29,926 nucleotides of DNA, taken from Syntrophorhabdaceae bacterium PtaU1.Bin034 (lineage in GTDB: Bacteria; Desulfobacterota_G; Syntrophorhabdia; Syntrophorhabdales; WCHB1-27). The position numbers and the translations under genes were made by a program. The notes under the pieces were generated by a model that was not told the origin of the DNA, did no database searches, and saw nothing but the letters and a program-made list of their open reading frames with translations. The stretch covers positions 1 to 29,926 of the forward strand of contig MVRP01000036.1 in assembly GCA_002067405.1 (NCBI GenBank), in the 5' to 3' direction. Of this stretch, positions 11,087-29,925 are shown piece by piece; within the stretch, counting starts at the first letter, position 1, and each line of letters begins with the position of its first letter.

Positions 11087-12376
11087 TTAGAACATGTTGT
11101 CCCTGCGCCAATCCAGGGGCAGCACCTGGATCCTGTCTCCCGCTTTTATCGCGTGTCCCTCCGGGATGATCGTGAGCGAGTTGGCAGCAACCATTGAAGC
11201 TAAAGGTCCCATTTTTTCGACCATATTCAGCATCACTCTGTATTCCCCGTCCACTTTCCGTAGATTCGTCCATCTCACGAACGGCATTGACATCTTCTGC
11301 AAAACCGAGTCTACTGCCGTTGCTTCAACCGAAGAATGGGCTATTGCCGACAGACCGCGCATCTTGAGAAGGGCGGGTCTTACCAGGGTTTCGAAATTGA
11401 TCATGCACCCGGCCGGAGGCCCTGCCAGGGCAAACACCGGGACGGGCGTTTCTCTCCTGATGGATGAAGATGTTGAGGACCTGTCCGCAAGACCGAACGC
11501 CACCGCCGCACCGGGCCCCATGTTGATCCTGGAAAAGACGATTTTTCCGAGCTTCGCCAAAAGCAGCCGGACGAGGTCGTAGTCCCCCTTCGAAACGCCG
11601 CCGCTCGTGATAATTGCGTCTGCCGTCATGCCCCTTCCTATTTTTCTCAGAAGAGAAGCTTCGTTGTCGCGCGCAATCCCTATGATCCTGGGTATGCCGC
11701 CGTAGTGAGTGACGAGAGAAGCGATTGCGGCCATATTGCAGTTGTAGCACTTGCCCTTGGACAGCCGCTTCCCTGGATTTATCAACTCGTCACCTGTAGC
11801 TATTACGGCCATAACCGGACGCCTCACAACCCTGATTCTGTCCCTCCCGAGAAAGGCGAGCGCAGAGACCTGAGCCGGACCGATGACCGTTCCCCGCGGC
11901 AGGATCAGGACCCCTTTGCTGGTGTTGCTTCCTGGTTCACGCACATTGGCGCCTGGCGCTACCTGGGCGTAAATTTTCACTGCCGAGGGATTGTGAGGAT
12001 TCGGCCCATTCTTGTCCTGCGGTTCATCCGTATCCTCGAATCGTACGACGCAGTCGGCCCCATCAGGAAGAATGGACCCTGTCATAATGCGCACGGCAGC
12101 CCCGGGCGGCACCGGGCCTCTTGGCGCTATCCCGGCTCTCACGGTTCCGGCAATGCGCAACGTCACGGGATTATCCCTGCCTGCCTCTTTGATATCGGCC
12201 GATCTCACCGCATATCCGTCAGGAATGGAGGTGCTCAACGCAGGCAAGCTCAGATCGGAATGGATATCCTGAACAGTCACCTGGCCAAGACAATCGAGGA
12301 GACGCTTCTCTTCTGTCTCCTCCATCACACGAACATTTTCCAGCACCTTCTTTAGAGCATCTTCATAACTTAGCAT
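11087..12376 (-). CDS. moeA: MoeA-family molybdopterin molybdotransferase, divergent form
   Basis: MoeA inserts molybdate into adenylylated molybdopterin to give Moco. The ATG follows AAGGAG. The N-terminal domain has SIPDGYAVRSAD where typical MoeA has SAMDGYAV. PPGAAVRIMTGSILPDGADCVVRFED, the MoCF_biosynth core (VIATGDEL; SGGVSKGDYDLV) and the C-terminal domain (IPEGHAIKAGDRIQVLPL) follow in normal order. The usual LPGNPVS loop reads LAGPPAGCMINFE. At 429 residues the length is normal, with a short insertion near DEPQDKNGPNPHNPSA. It is last in the - strand array, 225 bases behind the binding protein. It may be a paralogue specialised for this island, for example for W or for one enzyme class. 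Confidence 0.93.
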   Translation of the reverse strand: MLSYEDALKKVLENVRVMEETEEKRLLDCLGQVTVQDIHSDLSLPALSTSIPDGYAVRSADIKEAGRDNPVTLRIAGTVRAGIAPRGPVPPGAAVRIMTGSILPDGADCVVRFEDTDEPQDKNGPNPHNPSAVKIYAQVAPGANVREPGSNTSKGVLILPRGTVIGPAQVSALAFLGRDRIRVVRRPVMAVIATGDELINPGKRLSKGKCYNCNMAAIASLVTHYGGIPRIIGIARDNEASLLRKIGRGMTADAIITSGGVSKGDYDLVRLLLAKLGKIVFSRINMGPGAAVAFGLADRSSTSSSIRRETPVPVFALAGPPAGCMINFETLVRPALLKMRGLSAIAHSSVEATAVDSVLQKMSMPFVRWTNLRKVDGEYRVMLNMVEKMGPLASMVAANSLTIIPEGHAIKAGDRIQVLPLDWRRDNMF

Positions 12377-12404
12377 TACCTTACTCCTTATGTGCAGTTA
12401 TTGG

Positions 12405-12491
12405 GGCTCAGCGCCCCCTCTACCGGCAAGCCGGTAGAGACTTCCCCCTCATCTCGCTACGCTCGTAGCTGCCGTTGGCTCAGCGCCCCCT
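12405..12491. repeat. Intergenic repeat cluster upstream of moeA
   Basis: GGCTCAGCGCCCCCT occurs as a direct repeat at 12405-12419 and 12477-12491. Between the copies is a perfect 10-bp inverted repeat CTCTACCGGC-AA-GCCGGTAGAG split by 2 bases (12418-12439) and a 6-bp one, GCTACG-CT-CGTAGC. No T-tract is present. It looks like REP-type intergenic DNA and could also limit read-through into moeA. Confidence 0.5.
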
Positions 12492-12601
12492 TTCGCTATG
12501 CTGAAGTGCGGAGGAGATAGGGCGCAGAGGAGAAAATTTGCTTGTTTACCGTTGCCCCTCCGCCCCCGTTGCTTCAGCGGGTGCGTTTTTCGCTTTCATC
12601 G

Positions 12602-13660
12602 TCACATCGGCGGGAGACATTTCAGTATCCTTTCCGCGTCCTTATCCGTTATTGTCTTGCCGTACACCTCTGAATAGAAGGTCTTCATCTCTCCTGCCAT
12701 GTCCCAGTTCCTGAACAGGTCGGGGTGAAATATCTTTGCCATATATATGGCGAGCAGTATGCTTTCGCCACTCGCGTAATCCCATGCAAAAACCCCGTTC
12801 GGGATGGAATAGAGCTTTCCGTTCTTGACCGCCTTCATGGACGCCCAGTTCGGATTCTTCTTCACGCTTTCAAGCGTGTTGCCCCATCCGCTTATGAGGA
12901 TTATGTCCGGGTTCCACGACCATACCCGTTCCATATTTACTTCTGTGAAATTGCCGTCATAGGCCTGCGGCAGAAAGTTGCCGCCCGAGACCTCCGTAAG
13001 CCAGTGCATAATACTGGCCTTGCCCTGGCTGGACAGGAGATTCCCGCTCCTTCCTCCGTAATAGACGGTAGGCCTGTCCTTCTTGCGTATCTTTGAGGTC
13101 ACGGAGAGAATCTGGCCGATCTTCCTGTCGAAATACTCGCAGTACCTGATCGCTCTCGGTTTTGCCTCGGGGCCCAGGAGATCGCCGAAGAACATCACCT
13201 GCCTCTTGAAGTTGTCCATGAAGTCTTCCATGGTCCTCGGCCTTTTTTGAGCCGAGAAGCCGCACGCGGTCTTTATTCCCGCCGCCTTGTATTTCTCCGC
13301 TTCACCGGGGAACGGTGAATAAAGCACAAGGTCGACCTTGAGTTTCAGCATCCGCTCAACGTTGCCTGAAAAAGGCGGCTCTGTCGTATGCACATTCCTT
13401 ATTTCAGGGTAGAGCTTGTAAGCCCAGGGCGACGGTTTCATCATCAGGGTCAGGCTGCCGCCTTTCCCGAGCATGATGATCCTGTCCGAGGAGACACCAT
13501 GCATGCACGCTATCCTCCTGGGGTTCACAGGCACCTCGATCTTGTTGTCGTCCATGTCGGTAATGATCTTGTAATCGGCGGCATAAGCCAAAAAGGCAAG
13601 CCCATGGAACGCGGACAAGAATACCGCAAGCATGAGTAATAAGAGCTTCTTTTTCATCAT
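12602..13660 (-). CDS. Periplasmic metal/metallophore-binding protein of a FecCD-type ABC transporter (set 1)
   Basis: PF01497-type (FecB/BtuF/MolA-like) substrate-binding protein. I chose ATG 13660 because it lies 8 bases after the permease stop, after AAGGAA, and begins a signal peptide (KKKLLLLMLAVFLSAF, cleaved near AYAA). The 352-residue length is normal. The typical start of the mature protein is present (DMDDNKIEVPVNPRRIACM), as are two lobes joined by a helix, with conserved MERVWSWNPDIILIS and YSIPNGVFAWDYASGES. It is cotranscribed with its ATPase and permease. The substrate cannot be read directly. The setting with ModE boxes, MoeA and XdhC favours molybdate, tungstate or a chelate of these over ferric siderophore or cobalamin. 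Confidence 0.88.
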   Translation of the reverse strand: MMKKKLLLLMLAVFLSAFHGLAFLAYAADYKIITDMDDNKIEVPVNPRRIACMHGVSSDRIIMLGKGGSLTLMMKPSPWAYKLYPEIRNVHTTEPPFSGNVERMLKLKVDLVLYSPFPGEAEKYKAAGIKTACGFSAQKRPRTMEDFMDNFKRQVMFFGDLLGPEAKPRAIRYCEYFDRKIGQILSVTSKIRKKDRPTVYYGGRSGNLLSSQGKASIMHWLTEVSGGNFLPQAYDGNFTEVNMERVWSWNPDIILISGWGNTLESVKKNPNWASMKAVKNGKLYSIPNGVFAWDYASGESILLAIYMAKIFHPDLFRNWDMAGEMKTFYSEVYGKTITDKDAERILKCLPPM

Positions 13661-13668
13661 CTTCAGTT

Positions 13669-14679
13669 CTATTCCTTCCATTGTTTCGTCTGCTTCATGA
13701 GGAGATATCCGAGAAGAGGGGCGCCTATGAACGAGGTGACGATGCTTATCGGTATCTCTCCCGAAGGCACGAGCCTGACTATTGTGTCCGTCAGGAGCAG
13801 AAATACCGCTCCCAATACGGCGGCGAAGGGGATCAGCCTGGCGTGGTCCGGGCCCACGATCATGCGGGAAATGTGAGCGACGATAAGATCGACCCACATG
13901 ATTATCCCACAGGATGAGCTTCCTGCCGCCACGATAAGGGTCCCGAAAAGCATGAAGAGGACCCTTGAGAACTTGACATTCACTCCCATGGACAGTGCCT
14001 CTTCGTCCCCGAGCGCCATGAGATTGAGCTTTCCTCTGAACGCGCAGATCACACCTATGCCTATCGAGACAATCACCAGCGCTCTGATCACGTTATTCCA
14101 GAGGACGTTGTTCAGCCCGCCCATTGTCCAGAAGACGATGGCGGGGAGTTGCTCGTACGGATCGGCTATGTATTTCAGGAACGAGCCGGCAGCCATAAAA
14201 AAAGTAGATACGATGACCCCGGCGATCACGAGGGTGGTTATCGTATTGATGCCCCGGTTGCCTATTGCGTAGACCAGCACAACGGCCGCAACGGCCCAGA
14301 AGAAGGCGGAGGTCTCAACGGACAATGCAGATTTACTTAAGAATATTATGGCAATGGAGGCGCCGAATATTGCCCCGTGGGTCACACCGAGAAACGAAGG
14401 AGATACGAGGGGATTTTTCATGATCCCCTGAAATACGACCCCGCCTACCGAAAGAGCGGCCCCGGCAATGACGGCCATGAGCACCCTCGGCAGCCTGACG
14501 GACCATAAGACCATGGCCGGGACGGATAGCTCGTCTCCCGGAACCTGTCCCGCAAGCTTCAACGACACTACCTTCCACAATGTCACAAGTCCTATGTGAT
14601 ATTGGCCGGCGGTAAGCGCGAATAGCATACAAAGAACCAGCAGGGCCAGGATGATGACGAACGGACTGGTTCTTCTCAT
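13669..14679 (-). CDS. FecCD-type ABC transporter permease (set 1)
   Basis: Inner-membrane permease with about ten hydrophobic segments over 336 residues, the normal length for this family (BtuC/FecD/MolB). Signature blocks include LPRVLMAVIAGAALSVGGVVFQ, split here as the N-terminal coupling region, MKNPLVSPSFLGVTHGA, YIADPYEQLPAIVFWTMGGL and ALGDEEALSMG. The start overlaps the ATPase stop by 4 bases, and the binding protein follows after 8 bases. It is more diverged from the permeases of sets 2 and 3 than those two are from one another. Confidence 0.92.
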   Translation of the reverse strand: MRRTSPFVIILALLVLCMLFALTAGQYHIGLVTLWKVVSLKLAGQVPGDELSVPAMVLWSVRLPRVLMAVIAGAALSVGGVVFQGIMKNPLVSPSFLGVTHGAIFGASIAIIFLSKSALSVETSAFFWAVAAVVLVYAIGNRGINTITTLVIAGVIVSTFFMAAGSFLKYIADPYEQLPAIVFWTMGGLNNVLWNNVIRALVIVSIGIGVICAFRGKLNLMALGDEEALSMGVNVKFSRVLFMLFGTLIVAAGSSSCGIIMWVDLIVAHISRMIVGPDHARLIPFAAVLGAVFLLLTDTIVRLVPSGEIPISIVTSFIGAPLLGYLLMKQTKQWKE

Positions 14680-15467
14680 TGTTCATAGGCGGGGAGTACG
14701 TATTGCGCGCCCGTATCCGTATGCCCCATTCTTATCCTCATGTCGTAAAGTGACTCAAGGGATTCCACATGAAATACCTTGTCCCGTAAACCCTGATGAC
14801 ATATGCGGCCGTTATTCAGCATGACGAGCCTGTCGCAGTATCTTCCCGCAGCATTGGGGTCATGAAGGGTCATAATGGTGGTGAGGTTCTTCTCTCTCGT
14901 GATCTTCCTGATCAGTTCCATTATGGTGTACTGGCGTTTGAAATCGAGGTGTGAAGTCGGTTCATCGAGAAGCAGGAGCCCTGCCTTCTGGAACAGTGCC
15001 CTCGCTATCAGCACCATCTGTTTCTCGCCGCCGGAGAGTTCGTTGTACCGCCGTTCCGCAAGGTGCTCTACGCCTAACTCTTCGAGCACTTCGAGGGCGC
15101 TCAGATAGTCGTCCTTCTTCGCTACCCCTGAAATGCCGAACCTCACGCTGCCTGCCATCAGAATGATCTGAATTACCGTAAAAGAAAAGACTATGTTCAG
15201 TTCCTGCGGTACCATCGCTATCAGTCTGGCTATTTCCTCGCGGGAAAGCCTCGCGATGTCAAGGCCGTGCACCCTTATGCTCCCGTTCCTGTTGCAGAGT
15301 ATTCTGTTAATGCATTTAAGCAGGGTAGTCTTGCCGGAACCGTTGGGACCGAGAAGCCCGCAGATCTCTCCCTTTCTTACCGAGAAACTTATGTTGCTCA
15401 GCGTCTTTTTCTCCCGGTAACTGAAATCAAGATTCTCTATCACGAGGACTTCGTTGTTCTGCGTCAT
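14676..15467 (-). CDS. FecE/BtuD-type ABC transporter ATPase (set 1)
   Basis: Cytoplasmic ATPase of the set 1 importer. I placed the start at ATG 15467 (MTQNNEVLVIENLDFSY), after AGGGAG at 9 bases and 4 bases behind the peptidase-like gene. A longer frame would begin inside that gene. Walker A is GPNGSGKTT, the signature motif LSGGEKQM, Walker B LLLLDEPTSHLD, and the switch His is in MTLHDPN. At 263 residues it is standard. Gene order is ATPase-permease-binding protein, the reverse of set 2. Confidence 0.93.
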   Translation of the reverse strand: MTQNNEVLVIENLDFSYREKKTLSNISFSVRKGEICGLLGPNGSGKTTLLKCINRILCNRNGSIRVHGLDIARLSREEIARLIAMVPQELNIVFSFTVIQIILMAGSVRFGISGVAKKDDYLSALEVLEELGVEHLAERRYNELSGGEKQMVLIARALFQKAGLLLLDEPTSHLDFKRQYTIMELIRKITREKNLTTIMTLHDPNAAGRYCDRLVMLNNGRICHQGLRDKVFHVESLESLYDMRIRMGHTDTGAQYVLPAYEQ

Positions 15468-15471
15468 ACAC

Positions 15472-16278
15472 TTACGCTCCCTGTCTTTCGGTTTCATCTC
15501 CACAAACCCCGGCATCCAGGGCAGTCCAGTCCGTTTCGCCTGTCCGGTTACGGTAAAGCAGTCTTATGATTTCCGTCCTGCCCTTGGCCGCCAACAGGGA
15601 TTTGGTTTCTTTATAGGCTTGGAGATAAGCAGTATTCACCTCCTCACAGGAAGAAAGATCGTTCCACAATTCCTCCCGATCGTACCATTTCGCGGCACCA
15701 TCAATGCGCTCGGCGCAACTTTGCCGGAGGGGAGGATATATTTCACTGTTTATCACCTGGCACAGTCCTTCCTCCAGCCACATAGGCACGTCCCGCTTTT
15801 CTTTGCGCGTCATTGATAATACGGTAGCACCCGATATGTCCCGGACAACGTGATGGGTGATTTCATGCGCGAAGACACCGGTGAGGCGGTCCTTATCGGC
15901 ATTCACCCGGCAGGACAGCGGCGAGACAAAAAGAATGATGTTCCTGTTGTCCCGGCTCCCAGGCGCACAAAAGAAGCCTTCGTCATGGGGTTGGCACGTC
16001 ATATATTGCAGGTCTTCAACGTAAGGGGCCATCCACAGGCCGAAGGCCATATCACTATCAAAACCAAACCAGTCTTTAACGTATTGATACGCCTGAAGAA
16101 ACGACGTGCTGATTAACGGGAGCACGGCCTCATCCTGGGCGGCGTAACTGATATGCAGGCAATCCGATACCGCACACTGCTCGGTAATGTTCGGAGACTT
16201 TTCGAATCGCTCGGAGATATACCGAGTTTTTCGAAGGGCAAACCTTTTCTTCAACAAGGACTGGTCTATACTGTTCAT
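15472..16278 (-). CDS. Gluzincin-like putative zinc metallopeptidase (peptidase-MA-like)
   Basis: Carries HEITHH, the HExxH zinc site, near residue 142 counted from ATG 16278, and a downstream MWLEEGL whose Glu fits the third ligand of gluzincin or peptidase-MA-like folds. No signal peptide is evident. The start is uncertain: ATG 16278 (MNSIDQSLLKKRF) has only a weak AAAGAG ahead of it, and in-frame starts at 16410 and about 16362 would add up to 44 residues. I know no named orthologue. It sits between a GNAT gene and the set 1 ATPase, 4 bases from the latter, so it is probably in the same transcript. It might process a peptide or a regulatory protein. Confidence 0.7.
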   Translation of the reverse strand: MNSIDQSLLKKRFALRKTRYISERFEKSPNITEQCAVSDCLHISYAAQDEAVLPLISTSFLQAYQYVKDWFGFDSDMAFGLWMAPYVEDLQYMTCQPHDEGFFCAPGSRDNRNIILFVSPLSCRVNADKDRLTGVFAHEITHHVVRDISGATVLSMTRKEKRDVPMWLEEGLCQVINSEIYPPLRQSCAERIDGAAKWYDREELWNDLSSCEEVNTAYLQAYKETKSLLAAKGRTEIIRLLYRNRTGETDWTALDAGVCGDETERQGA

Positions 16279-16431
16279 GTTTTCTCTTTTCGAGAGAATC
16301 TGGGCCTGGTCCGCAGGGAAGGCCCAGACCCAGTCTCTCCGGGAAGCATAGGCAACTGCCATGGAGCGGTCCACGTCCACGACATTGCCTCTCGCTACCC
16401 GTCCGCCCACTTCACCCGTATGGGGACCAAA

Positions 16432-17046
16432 TCATAAAACGTTGTCGCCCCTTGCCGCTCTCCGCTTTTCTTCCCACTCTCGCCGAAGCATGCCAAAATG
16501 GATAAGGTCGAGCCGTTGACCTCGCCACTGAATCAACTCCCGTTCCACTCCCTCGTGCATGAACCCGAGCTTCTCCGCAACCCGCATCATCCGCGTGTTA
16601 AACGACCATGTATCCAGGGCGATCTTGTGTACGGTGGAATCGGTGAACAGATAATCTACCCACAGGCCTAAGGCCTCTGTTCCGATTCCTTTGTTAAGGT
16701 AGTTATCTTCGGCAATGTCGATCCCAACATACCAGACATCGGGAAATCGTTCCCGGACATAACGGCTGACCCAGCCTATAGGGTTATCCCGGAGGGTCGC
16801 AATGGTCGCCCTCTTGCGTGGGACCTGAATCCCCGTGTTGCAGCTTTTGATAAACCGGCGGATGAGCTTTTCTTGTTGCTCCTGATTCAGGGAGGTCCAG
16901 ATCCCTTCCCAGGGGGCATCATATTCCCTCCACTCCCCGTGTGTCTTCCAGTACACGTATTTCTCTATGTCGGCGAGAACATCGTCACGCAGAAAAACTT
17001 TTCTTCCCCTGGCGAAAGGCCGGGGCGGTGCATTGTGACTGTTCAT
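16432..17046 (-). CDS. GNAT-family N-acetyltransferase (RimJ/RimL-like)
   Basis: Acetyl-CoA-dependent acyltransferase fold of 204 residues. The C-terminal half has the family hallmarks GIDIAEDNYLNKGIGTEAL (acetyl-CoA pyrophosphate loop region) and NTRMMRVAEKLGFMHEGV, as in RimJ/SpeG-like enzymes. The N-terminus is atypical (PFARGRKVFLRDDVLADIEKYVYW). Its ATG overlaps the DUF364 stop (ATGA), so the two are translationally coupled. The acceptor is unknown. In this setting it might acetylate an amine of a chelating small molecule, or be a resistance or housekeeping enzyme carried along. Confidence 0.85.
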   Translation of the reverse strand: MNSHNAPPRPFARGRKVFLRDDVLADIEKYVYWKTHGEWREYDAPWEGIWTSLNQEQQEKLIRRFIKSCNTGIQVPRKRATIATLRDNPIGWVSRYVRERFPDVWYVGIDIAEDNYLNKGIGTEALGLWVDYLFTDSTVHKIALDTWSFNTRMMRVAEKLGFMHEGVERELIQWRGQRLDLIHFGMLRREWEEKRRAARGDNVL

Positions 17047-17957
17047 CCTCGGTCCCCGGTTATGTTTCTCAGGGCATCCCCCGGGCCTGGCCGGTCTCCC
17101 GCAGAGCCGTGCGATATCGGCTGAATCACCGTCCGCTCAGCGCCATTCCCGAAAAAGTGATATCCTGATCCGGCCTCGCTGATCACATTGAGAACCCTGT
17201 CAGGGTCCGTTACCATGACCCCTCCAAGGACGCTGACCCCTCTTCTGAAGAAGGCCTCGGGCAGCATGCTTGCGGTGGGACCAACCACGATAACCGTCGC
17301 GCCGGGCTTTCTCATCTCCAGGAGGCCCTCTATGGTGTCATTGATGAGGGTTGTGCCGGTAATGACGAGCAGGTCCGCCTGTGACACCTTCTCGGGTGCC
17401 AGTTGGTGAGGCACATAGTATTTCATCTCGTCCGGCTTCAATGCCATTGGGTCCAATTCCAGGATACCGAAGGGCTGTCCCCGTTGTTTCAGAACCCTTA
17501 TGATCGGTATAAGGGCCCCGACTACTACGACATAGCCGTCATCGGGCACTGCTACCTCGTCGAAGGCGTCGATGCCGGTCCTGATCTCGTAGGCCACAGG
17601 AGGTCTCTCATTCCAGCAGGCCGCAGAGAGCGCATTCATCACCGCGATGCCCATGGTCTTCTTCAGGGGATTACCGCTCTGCATCTCGTCAATGATTTGA
17701 GTGGCTTTTTTGCCTTTAAGCTTGCCGGAAGCAGGCATGGCACGAGCCGAGCTCGGACAGCACACCGCCTCGGGTATGGCCTTCACAGGGGTGAAACACA
17801 AGCCCCCAAAACCGTTGCTCAGTTTCACCCCTGTGAAGAAAAGCCCGAGGACAACCCGCTCGATGGTCAGTGTTCCCAGCGTGTCCCCAAGGACAGCCCT
17901 GATTTCCTCCATGGTCTCTTTCAGGATGTCGCCAGACTGATATGTCGTAAGTTCCAT
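17043..17957 (-). CDS. DUF4213-DUF364 putative metal-chelate-handling protein (copy A)
   Basis: 304 residues. The N-terminal DUF4213 enolase-like part has LGLFFTGVKLSNGFGG, AVCCPSS and VMNALSAACW. The C-terminal DUF364 Rossmann-like part has VVVVGALIPII, LLVITGTTLINDTIEGLL and VVGPTASMLPEAFF. The family is annotated as putative heavy-metal-chelation proteins and is often found beside metal ABC transporters; its biochemistry is not settled. The start at 17957 has only a weak AAAGAG. It is preceded by the radical SAM gene and overlaps the GNAT gene. Copy B (25445-26257) shares the FFTGV(K/E)LSNGFGG, CC and GPTASMLP blocks. The last ~25 residues beyond the family fold are Gly/Asp/Arg-rich and look like added sequence. 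Confidence 0.87.
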   Translation of the reverse strand: MELTTYQSGDILKETMEEIRAVLGDTLGTLTIERVVLGLFFTGVKLSNGFGGLCFTPVKAIPEAVCCPSSARAMPASGKLKGKKATQIIDEMQSGNPLKKTMGIAVMNALSAACWNERPPVAYEIRTGIDAFDEVAVPDDGYVVVVGALIPIIRVLKQRGQPFGILELDPMALKPDEMKYYVPHQLAPEKVSQADLLVITGTTLINDTIEGLLEMRKPGATVIVVGPTASMLPEAFFRRGVSVLGGVMVTDPDRVLNVISEAGSGYHFFGNGAERTVIQPISHGSAGDRPGPGDALRNITGDRG

Positions 17958-21929: not shown

Positions 21930-21938
21930 CTCACCTGT

Positions 21939-22985: not shown

Positions 22986-22992
22986 GGTCTTC

Positions 22993-23892
22993 TCACCACC
23001 GGACGGTGTCTGTTGCCTTGTCCCACCAGATCGCAGCCCACCTTACCACTCTTTCGTATGAAAGCCCCCAGTGCCCGTTTATGGGGACCAGATAATCCAT
23101 GAGATAGGCCCGGAGCCGTTTCTCTTCCCGGCAGCTCCGCTTGCCGAGCATCCATTCAACTGCGGCAACGGCCTCCTCGCAGCTCTTGTACATCCTGTTC
23201 CGCTTTTCGTCTATAAACGTGACGTTCGCGTGTATCCCCATCTGGTAGAGCAAGTTATAGGTGTAGATGTAATCCGGTCCGAGGTCAAGGGGTCGCCCTA
23301 TGGCATCGAACAGGCGCCGGTCGTATGGCCCGTCGCCGACGATCGTGACGATGCACACCCTTCGTCGGGCGACGCCGCTCAACTTCAGGATAGCGCCGCG
23401 GAGGTCGTCGACGACCATGGAGCGGGAGGCAACAGCGAGGTCACACGACCTGATACCGAGGTCCTTCCAGTCGTCTTCCCAACGTCCCTCGATAGTGACG
23501 ATATTGCTGACGCCCTCGGCTTTGCACCGCTCGTCCACGACCGAGAGCATTCTCGGCGATATATCGACGGCAGTCACCATCTTCACGCGTTTTGCCAGGG
23601 GAATGGCAAGAGTGCCGCTTCCGCAGCCCATGTCCAGCACCGTCCAATGCCCCATAGGGTTGATGATGGAAAGGAACCGGTCGGCATAGTCGGTTTCCGA
23701 TGCCGCCTTCTCGAAGGATACCGCTCTTCCGTCCCAGAACGACACGTTCCGCTTCGGTACGCTTGCTTGCGCCCTTCGCTCCTTCCACACGCGATTCCAA
23801 TCAACCGTCCTCATATCTATCGCTTCATCGAAAAATACCTCTTCGCAGGCGTCGCTGCAGACCATCATTTCGTTGTCCTGATTTATTGCCAT
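22993..23892 (-). CDS. Class I SAM-dependent methyltransferase (MT2)
   Basis: 299 residues. Motif I is VLDMGCGSGTLAIPLA and the acidic strand end is AVDIS. It is a close paralogue of MT1 (shared FWDGRA, GRWEDDW, LAVASRSMVVDDLRG, DYIYTYNLLYQMG). A ~45-residue N-terminal extension absent from MT1 carries MMVCSDACEEVFFDEA with two cysteines. The start at 23892 follows AGGGG, and the stop is 7 bases before the binding protein gene. It sits between FmdE and the set 2 transporter in the long ModE-controlled operon. The substrate is unknown. Confidence 0.88.
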   Translation of the reverse strand: MAINQDNEMMVCSDACEEVFFDEAIDMRTVDWNRVWKERRAQASVPKRNVSFWDGRAVSFEKAASETDYADRFLSIINPMGHWTVLDMGCGSGTLAIPLAKRVKMVTAVDISPRMLSVVDERCKAEGVSNIVTIEGRWEDDWKDLGIRSCDLAVASRSMVVDDLRGAILKLSGVARRRVCIVTIVGDGPYDRRLFDAIGRPLDLGPDYIYTYNLLYQMGIHANVTFIDEKRNRMYKSCEEAVAAVEWMLGKRSCREEKRLRAYLMDYLVPINGHWGLSYERVVRWAAIWWDKATDTVRW

Positions 23893-23901: not shown

Positions 23902-24519
23902 CTATTTTCCCGGCTGCGTCACGTGCAATGAGTAGTAGCACGTCCCTTCCGCGCAGGGTTTGCAGAGCGTCTTTCCGTGCTTGTATCGTTCTCTCATGTC
24001 CATAACGCGCTCTCCGCACATGTCGCATTTAACCACACGCAGAGGTTTTCCCGGCATATCCTGGGGCCGCACAATCAATACCACCTCCTGCATGTTGAAC
24101 AGCTTCTCGTCGGGCAATGAGGTATAGAGGTCAATCAAAGATCCCGGTTCTTCGCCTGTTTCTTTGAAGGCGCCTTTCTCCGTCCGGTTCTCTTCCTTTT
24201 CCCTGACCGTCAGCCTTACTGCCTTTCCGGTCTTCAAATTAAGGAAGGTGGCTGCCATTTTTCCATAGTCGAGGATCTTCATGGTCCTCCTGCCCGGCTG
24301 ACATCCTGTGATCGCCATGATGGCGTCGGTCGCGCACCGGTCGATCTCCACGAAGACGAGGAGGTTCTTTTTGTCCTTCCCCTTGGGGTCTTCCACACCT
24401 ATGGCCTTGAGCCCCGCGATCGCCATCCGCGTGCCGATGGTCAATCCCGCACAGATGTCCCCATGCACTTTTGCGGCGGCAGATAAACAGCGATCAAATT
24501 CAAGATAGTCCAAGCTCAT
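23902..24519 (-). CDS. fmdE: FmdE-family protein with C-terminal zinc ribbon
   Basis: 205 residues. The N-terminal FmdE domain has KVHGDICAGLTIGTRMA (Cys of the HG(D/H)ICxG motif) and FVEIDRCATDAIMAITGCQPG. The C-terminus is a Cys4 zinc ribbon, CDMCGERV ... LCKPCAE. FmdE is named from the molybdenum formylmethanofuran dehydrogenase operon of methanogens but is not a catalytic subunit; bacterial homologues are often near Mo/W genes and their exact role is unsettled. The ATG follows GGAGG. It lies between tonB and MT2. A metal-binding or cofactor-handling role for Mo/W is the reasonable inference. Confidence 0.92.
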   Translation of the reverse strand: MSLDYLEFDRCLSAAAKVHGDICAGLTIGTRMAIAGLKAIGVEDPKGKDKKNLLVFVEIDRCATDAIMAITGCQPGRRTMKILDYGKMAATFLNLKTGKAVRLTVREKEENRTEKGAFKETGEEPGSLIDLYTSLPDEKLFNMQEVVLIVRPQDMPGKPLRVVKCDMCGERVMDMRERYKHGKTLCKPCAEGTCYYSLHVTQPGK

Positions 24520-24573: not shown

Positions 24574-25431
24574 TCACTCAAGCCGGTAGACCACTGGTAT
24601 GACAAGCTGCGCCTTGACCGGAGGCTTGGGAAACGGCTCCACTTCTCTTATGGTCTGCACAACGTTTTGATCCAGGATGTCATATCCCGAGTTCTTCACT
24701 ATTCTTATTTTCTCGGTGTGGCCGTTCTCACAGACGACAAACGATACTGTCACCCCTCCATGCCAGCCGAGCTTCTTTGCTATAGGGGGATAGGTCAGGT
24801 TCTTAAGGATAAGATCCCGAATATAGGCAAAGTGTTCTTTAAGGTAACGGTTTCTCAGGGTCTCCGCCGACTCGCCGCGGCCCCTGCCGGATCCTGCGGA
24901 AGCGCCGATTCCGCTTCCCACGCCGGACCCGCTTCCCGTTCCTGTTCCGCTTCCCGTTCCGGACCCGATGCCGCTCCCCGTTCCCGTCCCTGCACCGTTT
25001 CCCGATCCGCCGCCGCTTGCGCCCGTTTCAGTGCCTCCCCACATTTGAGGCAAAGGAGCCGGGTCCGGGGCGGCAGAGTTCGATGCGACCATTTGCGGAG
25101 CCTGTTCGACGATCTTCTGCTCCACCATCGAGGCTGAAGCAGTTTCATTATCATTATCGGCTCTGGTCTTTGTGTAGCGCACACGAGCACGGGCTTTCCC
25201 GGTTTTGGGCTTTGCGGGCGCAGGCTGGAAGGCTTCTTTTTTCTCATTGCCCTGAACTGCCGATCCGCCCCCGCCCCCACCCCCGGCACTGTCAGGGGTC
25301 AGGAACACGACGAAGGGTTCGAGAGACCTTGTTGCATACGAGGCGCACACGCATACCCCTGCTATCAACACAATATGAAGCAGAAATGAGACAAGAAGCT
25401 CTTTGCGCATATAAAGTGACTTACCGCTCAT
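24574..25431 (-). CDS. tonB: TonB-family energy transducer with Gly/Ser/Thr-rich linker
   Basis: 285 residues. An N-terminal anchor (about 8-32; LLVSFLLHIVLIAGVCVCASY) is followed by a Gly7 run, a Lys/Arg/Pro part, and then a long linker of Gly-Thr/Gly-Ser repeats (about residues 135-195) in place of the usual Pro-rich spacer. The C-terminal TonB domain is intact: IRDLILKNLTYPPIAKKLGWHGGVTVSFVV, SGYDILDQNVVQ and PVVYRLE at the end. It lies 13 bases after DUF364 copy B, second in the ModE-controlled operon, with its exbBD pair further downstream. The linker is encoded by a GC-rich tandem-like stretch (about 24880-25020). Confidence 0.92.
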   Translation of the reverse strand: MSGKSLYMRKELLVSFLLHIVLIAGVCVCASYATRSLEPFVVFLTPDSAGGGGGGGSAVQGNEKKEAFQPAPAKPKTGKARARVRYTKTRADNDNETASASMVEQKIVEQAPQMVASNSAAPDPAPLPQMWGGTETGASGGGSGNGAGTGTGSGIGSGTGSGTGTGSGSGVGSGIGASAGSGRGRGESAETLRNRYLKEHFAYIRDLILKNLTYPPIAKKLGWHGGVTVSFVVCENGHTEKIRIVKNSGYDILDQNVVQTIREVEPFPKPPVKAQLVIPVVYRLE

Positions 25432-25444: not shown

Positions 25445-26257
25445 TTATCCTTTGAGTATGTTGATCTTTCTCACACACGCGTCGGTGAACAGGCGGTAGG
25501 CGCCGGCGCCTTCAGCGAGGAGGTCCAGCGCTTTATCTGTGTCGGTCACCTCCACCCCGCTCACTATGCTTGCATTCTTCTGAAAGAGGGCATCAGGCAA
25601 CATACTGGCTGTCGGTCCTGTGACGATCACCGTTGCGCCCGGCCTCGTAAAACTCAGAAGGTCGTCGATTGTCCCATTAGCTATTGATGCACCCGTGATA
25701 ATCACCGTGTCGCATGCGGGTAGCACAACGGATGCCTGTTCTGCGGGCACGTAAAATTGCATCTCGTCTGTTTTCAGGGAGTCCTTTTTTTGCTCCACCA
25801 CGCTCAGGTCTATCCCTTCCATTACTTTGAACCGCTTCAAAAAAGGAACGAAGGCCCCCACCATGCCGATCTTGCCCGCCGAACATAGATCTATCAAATC
25901 GAGCGCGTCGGCATCGTACACGATCCTATAGTTTTCCTCGTTGAGGAACGGTGCTGACAATGCATTCATCACGACAAGTTTCACCACATCGGTGAGCGGA
26001 GAGCTCCCTTTCCAATTCAGGAGCTCCGTCACGGGAAGTCCTTTCAGCCGGACAGGTGCGTGACTTTCCACCGCCATGGATGAGCAACAGGCGACTCCGT
26101 GCAAGTCAGCGGTCGGCGTATAGCCAACGCCACCGAACCCGTTGGAAAGTTCCACGCCGGTGAAGAACAACCCGATTATGATCCTGTCGATGCGAATGCC
26201 GTCGAGCTTCCCTCCATAAAGCGTTTGGATCTGCTGCAATGTCTCATTCAGTATCAT
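25445..26257 (-). CDS. DUF4213-DUF364 putative metal-chelate-handling protein (copy B)
   Basis: 270 residues, first gene of the long operon, with the ATG after GAGGAGGGG. The N-terminal block is LFFTGVELSNGFGG, then GVACCSSMAVESHAPV and VMNALSAPFLNEE. The C-terminal DUF364 part has GMVGAFVPFLKRF, DTVIITGASIANGTIDDLL and VTGPTASMLPDALF. It is shorter than copy A at the C-terminus and ends cleanly at the family boundary. The Cys-Cys pair and FTGV(E/K)LSNGFGG are shared between copies and are candidates for ligand binding. A ~330-base leader and a ModE-box promoter precede it. Confidence 0.88.
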   Translation of the reverse strand: MILNETLQQIQTLYGGKLDGIRIDRIIIGLFFTGVELSNGFGGVGYTPTADLHGVACCSSMAVESHAPVRLKGLPVTELLNWKGSSPLTDVVKLVVMNALSAPFLNEENYRIVYDADALDLIDLCSAGKIGMVGAFVPFLKRFKVMEGIDLSVVEQKKDSLKTDEMQFYVPAEQASVVLPACDTVIITGASIANGTIDDLLSFTRPGATVIVTGPTASMLPDALFQKNASIVSGVEVTDTDKALDLLAEGAGAYRLFTDACVRKINILKG

Positions 26258-26586
26258 AAATCCCCTCCTCGATGCATTGACACATAGCTAAAATCATAGC
26301 TGAAGAATATGCAGAGGTGGGAAATATGGATTCACTATTTCTTCTGTTCTCCATCACTTCTCGTTCTTGCAGTCAGGGGCTGACGGGAGAATGGAGGCAG
26401 TCATCCTCCCGCCCGCGCGCTGACGCTATCATAAGGGCCCGGCGGCAGGAGAGGCATCCAGGACCGCCTTGCCGACTATGAGGCGAACAGACAAATATCC
26501 TTGAAGCGTGACCGGCCGAAATCTCATTCGCGTGACCGTCCACTTCGCACTTTTGATCCGTTGTATCTACTCAGCAATAACCTCAT
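26258..26586 (-). other. Long untranslated leader of the DUF364-tonB operon
   Basis: About 329 bases between the predicted transcription start and the DUF364 ATG, with no convincing ORF. On the - strand it can form GGCGG/CCGCC (26468-26464 with 26445-26441), GGAGG/CCTCC (26409-26405 with 26397-26393) and GTCAG/CTGAC (26384-26380 with 26376-26372). I could not match it to a known riboswitch, including the Moco motif. Confidence 0.45.
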
Positions 26587-26589
26587 ATT

Positions 26590-26613
26590 CGTTATATAAC
26601 ATCATATATAACG
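26590..26613. promoter_or_regulatory. ModE-type operator, DUF364-tonB operon promoter
   Basis: A 24-bp inverted repeat: CGTTATAT, 8 bp, ATATAACG. The half-sites are perfect complements, the best of the three in the window. It covers the spacer and -10 of the leftward promoter, the position expected for repression by Mo-bound ModE. Confidence 0.85.
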
Positions 26614-26622
26614 ACAAGTCAA
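26593..26622 (-). promoter_or_regulatory. Leftward promoter of the DUF364-tonB-fmdE-transporter operon
   Basis: On the - strand, TTGACT (26622-26617), an 18-base spacer and TATATA (26598-26593). The layout, and most bases over about 42 positions, match the rightward promoter at 26720. Confidence 0.65.
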
Positions 26623-26719
26623 GACTTATTTTGCATTTTTTCCTAAAAGGGATGCAAGGGATATATCGACATGGGCATAACGTAAGAATAAAGGCCCATT
26701 TTTTCAACTGCTATTTACA

Positions 26720-26749
26720 TTGACCTGACGTTATTGCTGATGTTATATA
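26720..26749 (+). promoter_or_regulatory. Rightward promoter of the phosphoesterase gene
   Basis: TTGACC (26720-26725), an 18-base spacer and TATATA (26744-26749). Divergent from the 26593-26622 promoter, with 97 A/T-rich bases between the two -35 boxes. Confidence 0.6.
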
Positions 26750-26752
26750 ACC
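26729..26752. promoter_or_regulatory. ModE-type operator, phosphoesterase promoter
   Basis: CGTTATTG, 8 bp, ATATAACC: a 24-bp site with one strong half (GTTATATAAC context) and one weaker half. It overlaps the spacer and -10 of the rightward promoter as in the other two cases. Confidence 0.7.
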
Positions 26753-26873: not shown

Positions 26874-28028
26874 ATGCAAAGAATGACCGGAAATAATCTT
26901 GCGCGGTTGCGAATCCGGTGGCAGTCGGAGGGAAGAGGCGTCAGTCCAAGGAGGAGGACGTGTTTTCTGCTATCAACTCTGTCAGTAGCCCTCGTTCTGG
27001 CGGTCCTTCTGCTTGCAGGGTGCACGCATAACCATGCCGTCTGTGACGCGCTCCCCGGCTGGAAGTTCGCGGTTGTGAGCGACACTCAGGGAGATAATAA
27101 GGAAGTACCCGGCAAGTCCTGTATCAACGACGCAGTCGTGGCAAAAATAGCCGAGGACATGGTGGCGGAAAAACCCGATTTTGTCCTTGTTTCAGGCGAT
27201 CTCGTCAATGGCTGGTTTCGAAATGGGAGTACGGATTATTCACGTCAGTATTTAAACTGGAAGGCAGCCATGGAACCTGTGTACCGGGCAGGGATAAAAG
27301 TCTATCCCGTGCGGGGCAACCATGACAGCGGCCCCGAGCGCCTGGCCCTTCCACCCCTCCCGGCCCATCTGGAACCGCCTCCCGGGTCTATTGCTTTGTT
27401 GAAAGGTGCTTACTTAAAGCATTTCGCCGAAACCCACATCCCGAGAAACGGTCCGTCCGGAGAAGAAGGACTCACTTACCGCTTTATTCATAAGAACGCT
27501 TTTGTGATTGTCCTCGACCAATTCGACGAGCACCAGCACAAGATCGATCAGACATGGCTTGAAAGACAGCTCTCTCAAGGTAAAAAGCGCCACATTTTCG
27601 TGTTCGGCCACGAGCCTGCTTTTCAGGTGAGGCACAAGGACTGCCTTGCCTTTTACCCTGAGCACCGGGACGCCTTTTGGAATGCCATCGGTAAAGCGGG
27701 AGGGCGGCTCTATTTCTGCGGCCATGACCATCTGTACAACCGCGCCCTGATTTTCGACAAAGCCGGCAATCCGATCCGCCAGATCGTTGCTGGCACCGGA
27801 GGAGGCCGGCTTGTGGCATGGTCGGGTGTTTACCCGGAAGGTGAAAGGGTAAAGGGCGAATACAACAACTCTGATCATCACGGCTATCTTCTTGTTACGG
27901 TGGAAGTAACAAGGGTGACCGTTTCGTGGAAAGCCCTTGTCCTTGAGAAAGGGATTGAGCGCTTCCGGGTCCTCGATTCCTTTTCGTACGTGGCGTCGGC
28001 ATCTTTGGAAGGACTGCCGGAAAGATAG
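26874..28028 (+). CDS. Lipoprotein metallophosphoesterase (calcineurin-like)
   Basis: 384 residues. GGGGAGGGGGA precedes ATG 26874; ATG 26883 is an equally possible start. After a basic N-terminus, a hydrophobic stretch ends in the lipobox LLAGC (about residue 49), so the enzyme is probably anchored facing the periplasm. Metallophosphoesterase blocks are in order: VVSDTQGDN (DxH/DxQ-like first motif), LVSGDLVNG (GDxxx), PVRGNHDSG (GNHD), FVFGHEPAF and YFCGHDHLYNRAL (GHxH-like). The first motif reads DTQ instead of DxH, a common variant in this superfamily. It is the only gene of the right half on this strand apart from the AhpD-like gene, and it has its own ModE-box promoter. The substrate is unknown; a phosphate ester or phosphoanhydride in the periplasm is expected. 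Confidence 0.88.
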   Translation: MQRMTGNNLARLRIRWQSEGRGVSPRRRTCFLLSTLSVALVLAVLLLAGCTHNHAVCDALPGWKFAVVSDTQGDNKEVPGKSCINDAVVAKIAEDMVAEKPDFVLVSGDLVNGWFRNGSTDYSRQYLNWKAAMEPVYRAGIKVYPVRGNHDSGPERLALPPLPAHLEPPPGSIALLKGAYLKHFAETHIPRNGPSGEEGLTYRFIHKNAFVIVLDQFDEHQHKIDQTWLERQLSQGKKRHIFVFGHEPAFQVRHKDCLAFYPEHRDAFWNAIGKAGGRLYFCGHDHLYNRALIFDKAGNPIRQIVAGTGGGRLVAWSGVYPEGERVKGEYNNSDHHGYLLVTVEVTRVTVSWKALVLEKGIERFRVLDSFSYVASASLEGLPER

Positions 28029-28037
28029 CGCCGAATG

Positions 28038-28067
28038 AGAATCGGGGGAGGATCAGAGGCCGATTCT
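28038..28067. terminator. Candidate hairpin between convergent phosphoesterase and MT3 genes
   Basis: AGAATCGG (28038-28045) pairs with CCGATTCT (28060-28067) around a 14-base loop. It overlaps the last codons of MT3. It has no T-tract, so it is only a weak terminator candidate. Confidence 0.3.
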
Positions 28068-28871
28068 GTCCACCCGCCACATAAGCACGCCTATCTCGCT
28101 CTCCCTTCGGCACCGGATCATCCGTTTTTCCTTGTCGTTTTCGCTCAAGACCGCCATCACCGATGCTTCAATCCTGTTTCTGTGGGCCGCCTTGCCTGCC
28201 GCCTCGAATCTCTGCGCGATTTCATCAATAAGCTGTTCCGCTGTTTTCTCGGTGGTTGTCACGACATTCAGGGAACCGTAGGAGAAGCTCCTTCCCATCC
28301 CCGCGAGTTTGAGCCTGGTGTCGCGTATGTATGGTCTGGGCTTACGCGGAGCTTTCAGCGCCTTCAATACCCGGTCGCAAACCGGATCACGTCGTATCCT
28401 TTCCGTTGCAATGCAGACACACCACGTCTTCGCGCACCTCTCCATCTTGAGTATGTCTGCTTCGGTCTCAACAGCTATGGACAGCGCCGACAGAACGACG
28501 TCGAAAGCCTTTTCGAGGCCCGCATCCCTCACGTTTACCTCTTTCCACGAATGTCTGAGTAATTGGACGCCCTCAATGTCCATCTTCTCGGCTTCCCGCC
28601 ACAACCGGATAAGCATGTTTTCAGATATGTCGAGGGCAGTCACCCTCGAGCCCCTTTGTGCGAGAGGGAGAGCTAAAGTTCCCGTGCCGCATCCTATATC
28701 GAGTATACTGACTCCCTTCAGAGAAATTCCTTTTTCCTCCAGGATCCCGATTATCCGGATGGTTCGGGACAGGGTCTCGCTATCAAAGGGAAGGCCATAC
28801 TTCGGGGCCTTTTTCTCCCAAAAGAGGCGGTTATCCACTCCTGAAACAGCCCTGTCAGCGCTCGCTATCAT
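28053..28871 (-). CDS. Class I SAM-dependent methyltransferase (MT3)
   Basis: 272 residues, with the ATG after AGGAGG. Motif I is ILDIGCGTGTLALPLA and motif II ALDISENML. It keeps the general plan of MT1 and MT2 (N-terminal FWEKKAPKY in place of FWDGRA, HSWKEV in place of GRWEDDW, C-terminal IGVLMWRVDR) but is clearly more diverged. It lies downstream of the partial FecCD permease, with a binding-protein remnant and repeat copy 2 between them. Each of the three methyltransferases is thus next to metal-transport or Mo genes. The substrate is unknown. Confidence 0.87.
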   Translation of the reverse strand: MIASADRAVSGVDNRLFWEKKAPKYGLPFDSETLSRTIRIIGILEEKGISLKGVSILDIGCGTGTLALPLAQRGSRVTALDISENMLIRLWREAEKMDIEGVQLLRHSWKEVNVRDAGLEKAFDVVLSALSIAVETEADILKMERCAKTWCVCIATERIRRDPVCDRVLKALKAPRKPRPYIRDTRLKLAGMGRSFSYGSLNVVTTTEKTAEQLIDEIAQRFEAAGKAAHRNRIEASVMAVLSENDKEKRMIRCRRESEIGVLMWRVDRIGL

Positions 28872-28957: not shown

Positions 28958-29044
28958 CCCGAGCCGGAATTGAACTTTTTTGTCGCCAATTCCGGCATCA
29001 TAGGAGCAGCTGCGCAATTGGTTACGGTCGGCTTTAAGCCGACA
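28958..29044 (-). repeat. 87-bp structured repeat, copy 2
   Basis: Second copy of the element at 9556-9642, differing at two positions: one in the loop of the long hairpin and one closing the short hairpin (a U-A pair here, U-G there, read on the - strand). It lies between the binding-protein remnant and MT3, 87 bases before the MT3 start. Confidence 0.75.
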
Positions 29045-29057
29045 AGATCTACAAGTC

Positions 29058-29216
29058 CTACGAACAATAAATACTCTCTTTCCAGACCCGGAGAATCCCC
29101 TTCTCTCGGTTCTTCTGAAGGGTCCTTGCCCCGGCATCGCCTGATATGCCCGCGGAGACAATAGCAAAGACGACGCCGGCGACAAGGATTGAAAAATGAA
29201 TATGTTTACGAGCCAT
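29058..29216 (-). pseudogene. Truncated N-terminus of a family-3-type solute-binding protein
   Basis: A 52-codon ORF beginning MARKHIHFSILVAGVVFAIV, a good signal peptide, with a likely cleavage site near AGA. The next residues, RTLQKNREKGILRVWKES, resemble the start of mature family-3 (amino-acid-type) binding proteins, which usually read TLxKI+++GxLxVG. It then stops, 14 bases before repeat copy 2. No good Shine-Dalgarno is present. I read it as the remnant of a gene broken near the repeat; a real small exported peptide is the alternative. Confidence 0.45.
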
Positions 29217-29280
29217 CGAGGTTTTTCAAGATCGCACCTGACCGATCCACGGGTCTTCCCGCCGGACCTTCTCGAGGGTG

Positions 29281-29925
29281 TCATGTCCAGCCCTTCCTTG
29301 CTTTTCTCAATATGATCCAGAAGAAAGGTATACCGATCAGCGAGGTGGAGATACCGATCGGCACCTCCACGTTGAAAAGCAGTCGCGACACGTCGTCCAC
29401 TATCAAAAGGTAAATTGCGCCGATCAGGGCGCTTGCAGGGACGAGGGTCTTGTTGTTGGGGCCGATGAGCATCCTTGCCACGTGAGGGATCACGAGGCCG
29501 ACCCACCCGATCATGCCGGCCAGCACCACCGTGAGGGCGCTTGCGGTTGTCGCCAGGAATATGAGGAGCAGGCGGACCCATTCCACGGGGACGCCCAGCG
29601 CCTTCGCCTCTTCGTCACCCATGCTCAAAGCGTTGAGATAGCCGGAAAAGAGAGCAATAAGGATGATGCTCGCAACCTGGGGAATGGCCAGGAATGTCAA
29701 GGAACGGCCGTCGACCAGGGATAACCCGCCCATAAGCCATTGGACGATGGCAGGCAACTGATTGTAGGGGTCTGCTACATACTTGACGATCGACAGGAGT
29801 GAAGTAAAAAGGGCGCTGCTGATCACCCCGCCGAGCACGAGCAGCAATATCGTGTTGCCTCTATACATCTTCGCCGTGCCGACGGCAATAAGAACGGCTG
29901 CAAAACCGAATACGAAGGTGCCTGT
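29281..29925 (-). CDS. FecCD-type ABC transporter permease (set 3, 5' part beyond window)
   Basis: The frame is open to the right edge of the window; 214 C-terminal residues are visible. It follows the set 2 permease almost block for block: FGFAAVLIAVGTAKMYRGN, LGGVISSALFTSLLSIVKY, VADPYNQLPAIVQWLMGGL, LSMGDEEAKALGVP, VVLAGMIGWVGLVIPHVARML, and the C-terminus RKARKGWT. A third transporter of the same kind therefore begins beyond 29926. No ATPase gene follows it in the window, so set 3 may share the ATPase of set 2 or be partly decayed. Confidence 0.92.
   Translation of the reverse strand, partial: TGTFVFGFAAVLIAVGTAKMYRGNTILLLVLGGVISSALFTSLLSIVKYVADPYNQLPAIVQWLMGGLSLVDGRSLTFLAIPQVASIILIALFSGYLNALSMGDEEAKALGVPVEWVRLLLIFLATTASALTVVLAGMIGWVGLVIPHVARMLIGPNNKTLVPASALIGAIYLLIVDDVSRLLFNVEVPIGISTSLIGIPFFWIILRKARKGWT

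Follow-up and report, generated by a model that had tools for sequence, protein, structure and literature searches.

A recurring TonB-type gene island, probably for molybdenum or tungsten acquisition, in a Syntrophorhabdaceae genome

Enzymes that use molybdenum (Mo) or tungsten (W) power the cycling of carbon and nitrogen in anaerobic settings, and uptake of these metals is usually pictured as that of the free oxyanion, via porins and the ModABC or TupABC transporters. A precedent for an organic Mo carrier is provided by the Azotobacter molybdophores, which are catechol siderophores. Here, we describe a gene island on contig MVRP01000036.1 of Syntrophorhabdaceae bacterium PtaU1.Bin034 (positions 1 to 29,926; this whole stretch of 29,926 nucleotides is referred to as the window), which we regard as a genuine TonB-type system for acquisition under Mo/W control, its gene set recurring in relatives. 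While the Azotobacter compounds are iron-type catecholates, the candidate enzymes of the island are dependent on S-adenosylmethionine (SAM) and Mo-controlled.

Among described systems, MolABC of Haemophilus influenzae (HI1470-1472) resembles the island in its FecCD-type (Type II) permease, matching ATPase and related binding protein, but it has low affinity, and the accessible part of its description mentions no TonB, receptor, DUF364, FmdE or radical SAM protein (PMC4031551). Siderophore and B12 uptake systems share the whole transport chassis, including the receptor found in relatives of the island; the island differs in being under ModE or a molybdenum cofactor (Moco) riboswitch, not under Fur or cobalamin, and no non-ribosomal peptide synthetase (NRPS) or NRPS-independent siderophore (NIS) synthetase was noticed among its annotated open reading frames (ORFs). 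In Pelobacter carbinolicus, TonB-type ligand-gated channels lie near metal-binding or molybdopterin-related genes and molybdopterin riboswitches, and novel metal ligands made by tetrapyrrole methyltransferases have been suggested; the accessible part of that account, a single passage in a genome paper, lacks a radical SAM/DUF364/FmdE set and mentions neither ModE nor a cross-phylum comparison (PMC3543383). The DUF364 structure paper proposes heavy-metal chelation and a Mo/W/V (molybdate/tungstate) gene context, with no TonB, receptor, radical SAM or ModE/riboswitch control in its accessible portion (PMC2954201); both DUF364 proteins of the window are members of this family (structures 3l5o and 3npg). 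Other accounts, as far as their accessible parts go, describe a Syntrophomonas wolfei operon with three Moco RNAs, transport genes and unknown genes (PMC2408646), a predicted Geobacter ModE regulon that includes several transport systems (PMC2700814), and molybdophores as one of the known metallophore classes (PMC11317620). A first-pass annotation, made from the DNA letters alone, had called the system undescribed. This holds for the system as a whole, of which we recognised no description in the literature searched (subscription papers were mostly outside its reach), but not for its parts: DUF364 chelation with its Mo context (PMC2954201) and TonB channels near molybdopterin riboswitches (PMC3543383) are in print.

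On balance, we favour the explanation that the island is a ModE-repressed gene set for high-affinity Mo or W acquisition, in which the enzymes would build or rework the ligand of the imported complex. Its main run consists of 17 consecutive minus-strand genes (26257 to 11087), probably a single operon. Scanning for the ModE-type pattern CGTTAT-N12-ATAACG at ≤2 mismatches gave six matches in the window against a mean of 0.65 in shuffled sequence, with none of 100 shuffles reaching six. A perfect palindrome (10607-10630) lies 88 bp upstream of the methyltransferase gene MT1, and a cluster (26559..26752) occupies the gap between the divergent genes for DUF364 protein b and a phosphoesterase. The cluster contains a second perfect box (26590-26613), 333 bp ahead of the gene that opens the main run, a box with one mismatch (26729-26752) and two with two mismatches (26559-26582 and 26659-26682); the remaining match, at 5035, falls inside a TpsB gene. 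Palindromes at operon starts, by which a ModE regulon is recognised, are hence present as two perfect copies and one near-perfect copy, which bears out the first-pass description of the island as Mo-controlled. The palindrome agrees with the E. coli ModE consensus, ATCGCTATATA-N6-TATATAACGAT, as quoted in the accessible part of the Geobacter genome paper (PMC2700814). The phosphoesterase gene (26874..28028, plus strand, divergent from the main run; calcineurin-like, PF00149 3.5e-15, with a lipoprotein-like signal) starts 122 bp from the nearest box.

Relatives were collected in two ways. An alignment of the radical SAM protein (A2) compared with genome contigs gave 100 matching stretches, of which the best 80 were kept, yielding 79 loci. 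Of these, L001-L015 are true radical SAM relatives (15 loci, E at most 4e-52) and L016 is an archaeal HcgA-like gene; the other 63 (L017-L079), which are unannotated and match the radical SAM protein far more weakly, served as controls. The true relatives come from Desulfosporosinus and other Clostridia, Proteobacteria of Burkholderiales/Rhodocyclales type, one Desulfocapsaceae and one Acidobacteriaceae metagenome-assembled genome. With L133-L136, added from order and family searches, 19 radical-SAM loci were available (10 Gram-positive, 8 Gram-negative, 1 acidobacterial); L005 overlaps L014 on a single contig, and a single genome supplied both L010 and L015. The second search, with the binding protein PBP2 (1e-75 or better, at most five candidates scored per genome), found matches in 13 of 395 Desulfobacterota genomes, giving regions L120-L132. 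Left out of the counts were L016, the paralogue loci L092-L100 and other short loci (~4 kb pieces or duplicates), and L137-L141, which were fetched to follow nitrogenase-like and ModE genes; proteins P0023 and P0032, which resemble assembly chimeras, were excluded as evidence for fusions.

Counting the window, the 22 Gram-negative loci span 401 kb and contain 38 ModE-type boxes at ≤2 mismatches and 17 at ≤1, compared with 3-6 and 0-1, respectively, in ten shuffles; without the window, 32 and 14 remain. The 63 controls contain 14 boxes in 980 kb, all at two mismatches. Each group shows the excess by itself: the 13 PBP2 loci have 17 boxes against 0-6 in shuffles, and the 8 Gram-negative radical-SAM loci have 15 against 0-4. 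Boxes occur in 16/22 loci and, by an automatic rule, near a recognised island gene in 11/22, including a doubtful case in L127 where the box sits within a gene. In the Gram-positive loci, ModE patterns are at background level only; there, the Mo/W riboswitch RF01055 is present in 7/10 loci (L001, twice, L003, L004, L006, L012, L133 and L134), and six of these seven loci have it upstream on the same strand. The exception is L003, where it precedes methyltransferase genes at a point ~5 kb downstream from the radical SAM gene. Neither the Gram-negative loci nor the control loci scanned (11 of 63) yielded an RF01055 match. The sensor proteins follow the same division: a ModE-type DNA-binding domain (TIGR00637, 1e-8) is encoded in 19/19 Gram-negative island genomes, six of them above the curated cut-off, and in 0/10 Gram-positive ones. 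This domain lies within ~15 kb of the island in 7/19 genomes, the nearest being 1 kb from the radical SAM gene (genome G012). Two unrelated Mo/W sensors acting on one gene set argue that the cargo is Mo or W, which is our strongest argument and makes Mo/W acquisition the very likely function of the island. A search of other bacteria for co-occurrence, which the first-pass annotation had proposed for anaerobes, returned a recurring gene set with ModE boxes or RF01055.

Hidden Markov model searches of the window ORFs with Pfam and NCBIfam recovered every family named in the first-pass annotation (TonB, ExbBD, FecCD importers, DUF364, FmdE, methyltransferases, radical SAM, GNAT, MoeA and XdhC). 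The main run begins with DUF4213/DUF364 protein b (25445..26257; PF04016 5.5e-40), followed by a TonB whose translation reads as having a Gly/Ser-rich linker (24574..25431; PF03544 4.1e-17), an FmdE domain with a C4 zinc finger (23902..24519; PF02663 2.2e-31, PF01258 1e-07) and the class I methyltransferase MT2 (22993..23892; PF13649 4.7e-13). An importer set (20065-22985) comes next, consisting of the periplasmic binding protein (PBP) PBP2 (21939..22985; PF01497; PDB 4pag 6.7e-81), FecCD-type permease 2 (20916..21929; PF01032 1.6e-78) and ATP-binding cassette (ABC) ATPase 2 (20065..20925; PF00005 2e-29), and then ExbB (19494..19928; PF01618 2.9e-29), ExbD (19130..19513; PF02472 1.5e-28), a radical SAM enzyme of HcgA/HydE/BioB type (17974..19053; PF04055), DUF4213/DUF364 protein a (17043..17957; PF04016 1.4e-43), a GNAT acetyltransferase (16432..17046; PF13302 2.9e-16) and a peptidase-MA-like protein with an uncertain start and a weak match below cut-off (15472..16410; PF13485 0.0021). 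The other importer set (12602-15515) is made up of ABC ATPase 1 (14676..15515, true start probably ~15467 as read from the translation; PF00005 3.8e-33), FecCD-type permease 1 (13669..14679; PF01032 5e-79) and PBP1, with a signal-peptide-like N terminus and a start read from the translation (12602..13681; PF01497 7.4e-19). The run closes with MoeA, for Mo insertion into molybdopterin (11087..12376; PF03453 2.9e-41, PF00994). The island start at 11087 proposed in the first-pass annotation encloses this run but leaves outside a second minus-strand unit (10519 to 8385) of class I methyltransferase MT1 (9701..10519; PF13649 6.8e-12) and an XdhC-family Mo-enzyme maturation factor (8385..9473; NF045664, 326.5 bits vs a cut-off of 350). 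Another unit, also on the minus strand, holds the class I methyltransferase MT3 (28053..28871; PF13649 3.9e-13) and a third FecCD permease cut by the contig end (29281..29925; PF01032 8.3e-51), which is 70-75% identical to permease 2 at the DNA level in three aligned blocks.

The components by which metallophore uptake is recognised, TonB, ExbB, ExbD, a PBP, a FecCD permease and an ATPase, are all in the window. A TonB-dependent receptor is found in all 21 Gram-negative loci of relatives: 8/8 radical-SAM loci and 13/13 PBP2 loci, compared with 0/63 controls, 0/10 Gram-positive loci and 0/1 acidobacterial locus. The receptor profile was built from eight of the receptors themselves, and receptors were checked with Pfam in eight loci (L008, L009, L013, L015, L124, L127, L131 and L132). 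TonB and ExbBD together with a receptor point to active uptake through the outer membrane, supporting the TonB-powered uptake suggested at the outset. The receptor that the first-pass annotation expected nearby is seen throughout the Gram-negative relatives but not in the window, and it is probably encoded outside the contig, which is cut inside the third importer; a position upstream of the third FecCD gene is predicted for it. The usual Gram-negative order is the radical SAM gene, then the receptor, then mostly FecCD, ATPase and PBP; the L010 stretch stops after the receptor, L013 also has TonB, and in L120 the receptor is on the opposite strand. FecCD genes are present in 15/19 radical-SAM loci (8/10 Gram-positive, 7/8 Gram-negative, 0/1 acidobacterial) and 0/63 controls, and MoeA in 3/10 Gram-positive radical-SAM loci. 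The 13 PBP2 loci encode a receptor in 13, FecCD in 12, TonB in 9, FmdE in 7, a class I methyltransferase in 7, DUF364 in 5 and the HcgA-like radical SAM enzyme in none; L125 and L129 have nearly the transport and enzyme set of the window plus a receptor, without the radical SAM gene. In L121, FmdE and a methyltransferase are fused, the same pair as FmdE and MT2 in the window. Among the best 120 matches listed, the named homologs of DUF364 and PBP2 bear names of Syntrophorhabdales, Syntrophales and Geobacter. XdhC had a single match, at 36% identity, in 6 genomes searched, and PBP2 had none at 1e-60 in 24 genomes from the order of L057.

Several observations weigh against Mo/W acquisition by a conserved island, including the iron-, nickel- and cobalt-type signals described in the following paragraph. 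Neither a ModE box nor a Mo riboswitch is found in 5/13 PBP2 loci (L120, L121, L125, L129 and L132), of which L125 and L129 rank among the closest in gene content; a Mo signal is likewise absent from L002, L007, L011 and L135, the last three lacking the riboswitch, and all four but L011 are short. Over whole genomes, boxes at ≤1 mismatch are no commoner overall than the reversed pattern, and therefore only the nearness of boxes counts. No ModE gene was found in the window, and a receptor-profile search found no TonB-dependent receptor in it. In NCBIfam, both permeases come closest to B12-type families and ATPase 1 to a heme-type family, with no score above cut-off, and an 'iron complex' chain (4hn9) outscores MolA for PBP1. 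The radical SAM gene was found in Desulfobacterota only in G012, the search centre, among 395 genomes. In the order of Desulfosporosinus, 10/73 genomes match at 1e-60, three of these with the paralogous type only, and in the family of L005 the gene is present in at least 3/249 genomes; as few candidates were scored per genome, the 395- and 249-genome figures are lower bounds. The gene is thus rare among the genomes searched. In the radical SAM tree, the Desulfocapsaceae copy (L013 9926-10987) stands inside a well-supported, mostly proteobacterial group, a placement that suggests transfer between lineages and a horizontally passed island. The loci are related, and their counts therefore do not represent independent events. 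Upstream of 4697 in L125 and of 826 in L129, we also observed A/T-rich palindromes with TTAACAT / ATGTTAA-like arms and no standard ModE boxes, possibly the site of another regulator.

Iron and B12 systems typically use FecCD permeases, PBP2-fold proteins and TonB, and an iron, cobalamin or nickel uptake island that merely happens to be under ModE would explain them; we judge this very improbable. NikR-like sites number 8 in the 13 PBP2 loci, vs 1-7 in ten shuffles, one of them preceding the first genes of L125. Fur-like sites amount to 4 vs 1.2 expected in seven Gram-positive loci, all in L006 and L011. In L139 (6118-13257), genes for a NifH-like protein, a nitrogenase-like pair, a PBP, FecCD and an ATPase lie downstream of a cobalamin riboswitch, with no radical SAM gene; this is apparently the same chassis in a cobalt/B12 setting. 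Against such a function, the window has no Fur-like site, the Gram-negative radical-SAM loci have 0 Fur-like and 2 NikR-like sites (shuffles 0-2 each), and the 13 PBP2 loci are at shuffle level for Fur, with one site (shuffles 0-4), near the second receptor gene of L127. Zur-like sites are absent from the window and from seven Gram-negative loci, no cobalamin or NiCo riboswitch occurs in L001-L015, and the two unrelated Mo/W sensors recur. Consistent Fur, B12 or Ni signals in place of ModE boxes had been named in advance as a finding that would overturn the proposed Mo/W scavenging system. The outcome is mainly in favour of that proposal: the islands carry ModE boxes or Mo/W-cofactor riboswitches, with Fur not above shuffles in the Gram-negative loci, but the five signal-free PBP2 loci, the NikR count and L139 are exceptions.

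The radical SAM enzyme of the window has invariant cysteines at 63, 69 and 72, and the resulting CX5CX2C motif is also found in the relatives compared. It shares this motif and similarity to TIGR03957 with HcgA of [Fe]-hydrogenase cofactor synthesis, but scores 127.9 bits, below the family cut-off of 320.9, and has no convincing hcg-like companion genes; judged by score and gene context, it is not HcgA. Its predicted structure (mean predicted local distance difference test score 89.5) matches HydE, BioB and PylB folds. As a separate candidate, synthesis of the iron-guanylylpyridinol (FeGP) cofactor was rejected, the other ORFs of the archaeal locus L016 having no convincing match among window or island ORFs (one at 0.0045, 12.6 bits). 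DUF364 proteins a and b both contain the Pfam domain pair DUF4213/DUF364 above cut-off; the model of protein a has good matches to DUF364 structures only (3npg and 3l5o), and HcgC, considered because DUF364 might be an HcgC-like methyltransferase, is not among the matches listed.

According to the favoured explanation, scarcity of Mo or W would cause ModE to leave its boxes, after which TonB-ExbBD would power an outer-membrane receptor, encoded outside the contig, that imports a Mo/W complex. PBP1 and PBP2 with the two FecCD importers would carry the complex into the cytoplasm, MoeA and XdhC would put the imported metal into molybdenum enzymes, and, also in the cytoplasm, the HcgA-like radical SAM enzyme, the class I methyltransferases with FmdE, DUF364 and GNAT would build or rework the organic ligand of the complex. 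What we observe are the gene content, the ModE-type boxes, and the receptors and Mo/W sensors of relatives; from these we infer ModE repression, metal transport, the existence and chemistry of the ligand, and the order of the steps. The enzymes of the island are mostly of group-transfer or radical SAM kind, and their genes stay beside the importers with or without an outer membrane, Gram-positives included. Since they are kept where there is no outer membrane, the enzymes more likely act on the ligand of the transported molecule than on an envelope step.

In another arrangement, which appears unlikely to us, the substrate of the receptor and importers would itself be inorganic (molybdate, tungstate or thiomolybdate), TonB would be needed only because of strong dilution, and the enzymes would belong to Moco or other metabolism that ModE co-regulates. 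MolA (3psa) is the third match for both PBPs (2.3e-20 for PBP2, 6e-14 for PBP1), and MoeA and XdhC place Moco genes in the same neighbourhood, as this arrangement would have it. To our knowledge, Moco synthesis needs no HcgA-like radical SAM enzyme, DUF364 or methyltransferases of this kind, which counts against it, as does the finding that, in several phyla, importer genes are interspersed with those for radical SAM enzymes, DUF364 and methyltransferases, which are kept even without a receptor. The accessible part of the MolBC-A literature cuts both ways, describing MolA as a binder of free molybdate and tungstate and the system as low-affinity (PMC4031551).

Alternatively, the cargo could be a ready-made organic compound scavenged from other cells, for example debris of the molybdopterin cofactor or a metal complex resembling a tetrapyrrole, which the enzymes would dismantle; we consider this quite improbable. 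The cofactor itself is the presumed signal for the Moco riboswitch, some Gram-positive islands encode nitrogenase-like proteins, a class that includes tetrapyrrole reductases, and the B12-riboswitch version of the island exists in L139. In keeping with scavenging, too, DUF364 is predicted to bind pterin- or flavin-like ligands in the accessible part of its structure paper (PMC2954201), and no common exporter was noticed among annotated ORFs, no dedicated search having been made. The lipoprotein-like phosphoesterase beside the ModE-type boxes would also fit, but it matched no box-adjacent gene in other loci. The binding proteins speak against it in part, PBP2 scoring MolA above the named iron and heme chains and PBP1 having the one 'iron complex' chain above MolA, and none of the findings points directly to pterin or tetrapyrrole import.

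Returning to Mo/W acquisition with a dedicated ligand, a molybdophore as the carrier of the cargo is a good, plausible inference. More tentatively, and with the odds rather against it, the island may make a Mo/W metallophore of a new class, assembled independently of NRPS and NIS enzymes through methyl transfer and radical-SAM reactions (by the HcgA-like enzyme, the FmdE-linked methyltransferase and DUF364, joined in some Gram-positives by a dedicated nitrogenase-like reductase), used in monoderms and diderms and switched by the Moco/tungsten cofactor riboswitch or ModE, respectively. No shared exporter, NRPS or NIS gene was noticed among the annotated ORFs, many neighbours being unannotated and no dedicated search having been made. 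If the favoured explanation is true, some anaerobes actively import complexed Mo or W, as bacteria do with iron and B12. DUF364, FmdE, HcgA-like radical SAM enzymes and divergent nitrogenase-like proteins would then gain functional settings, and testable genes for a molybdophore or tungstophore would be named.

The relatives contain further unusual genes. A protein joining a PBP domain to a radical SAM domain of PflA-like type, different from the HcgA-like enzyme, is encoded in L003 (14102-15886), L120 (2332-4185), L127 (16755-18548), L130 (12122-13984) and L131 (5605-7455), as identified by Pfam in L003 and L120 and by similarity in the others. The L003 fusion has no signal peptide and is probably cytoplasmic because it has no hydrophobic segment. 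Divergent nitrogenase-like subunit pairs occur in L133 (2827-5465), L137 (4241-6545 and 13742-16865, one pair accompanied by a NifH-like protein) and L138 (11846-14322), among FecCD, MoeA, DUF364 and radical SAM genes and with Mo/W riboswitches in the same stretches. In the Mo-riboswitch island of L004, one gene (7180-8106) encodes a TrmO-like domain followed by a weak FmdE match, and in ModE-box islands a DUF2478 gene adjoins the receptor and PBP genes (L009 5133-6179, L136 6231-6794).

Within the window, a 99-nt intergenic direct repeat lies beside MT1 (9549-9647) and MT3 (28951-29049), the copies being 94% identical and containing hairpins and a tRNA T-arm-like stretch; against Rfam it reached the gathering score of no family, with a single chance match under the cut-off, and the loci of relatives gave no match to it. 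A small carboxymuconolactone-decarboxylase-like protein (10755-11063) is divergent from MT1 across the perfect ModE-type box. The other end of the contig (2-6818) encodes TpsA, which has GLUG motifs, and TpsB as a two-partner secretion pair, followed by a second ExbB-ExbD-TonB set (5252-6818), which the first-pass annotation had not mentioned.

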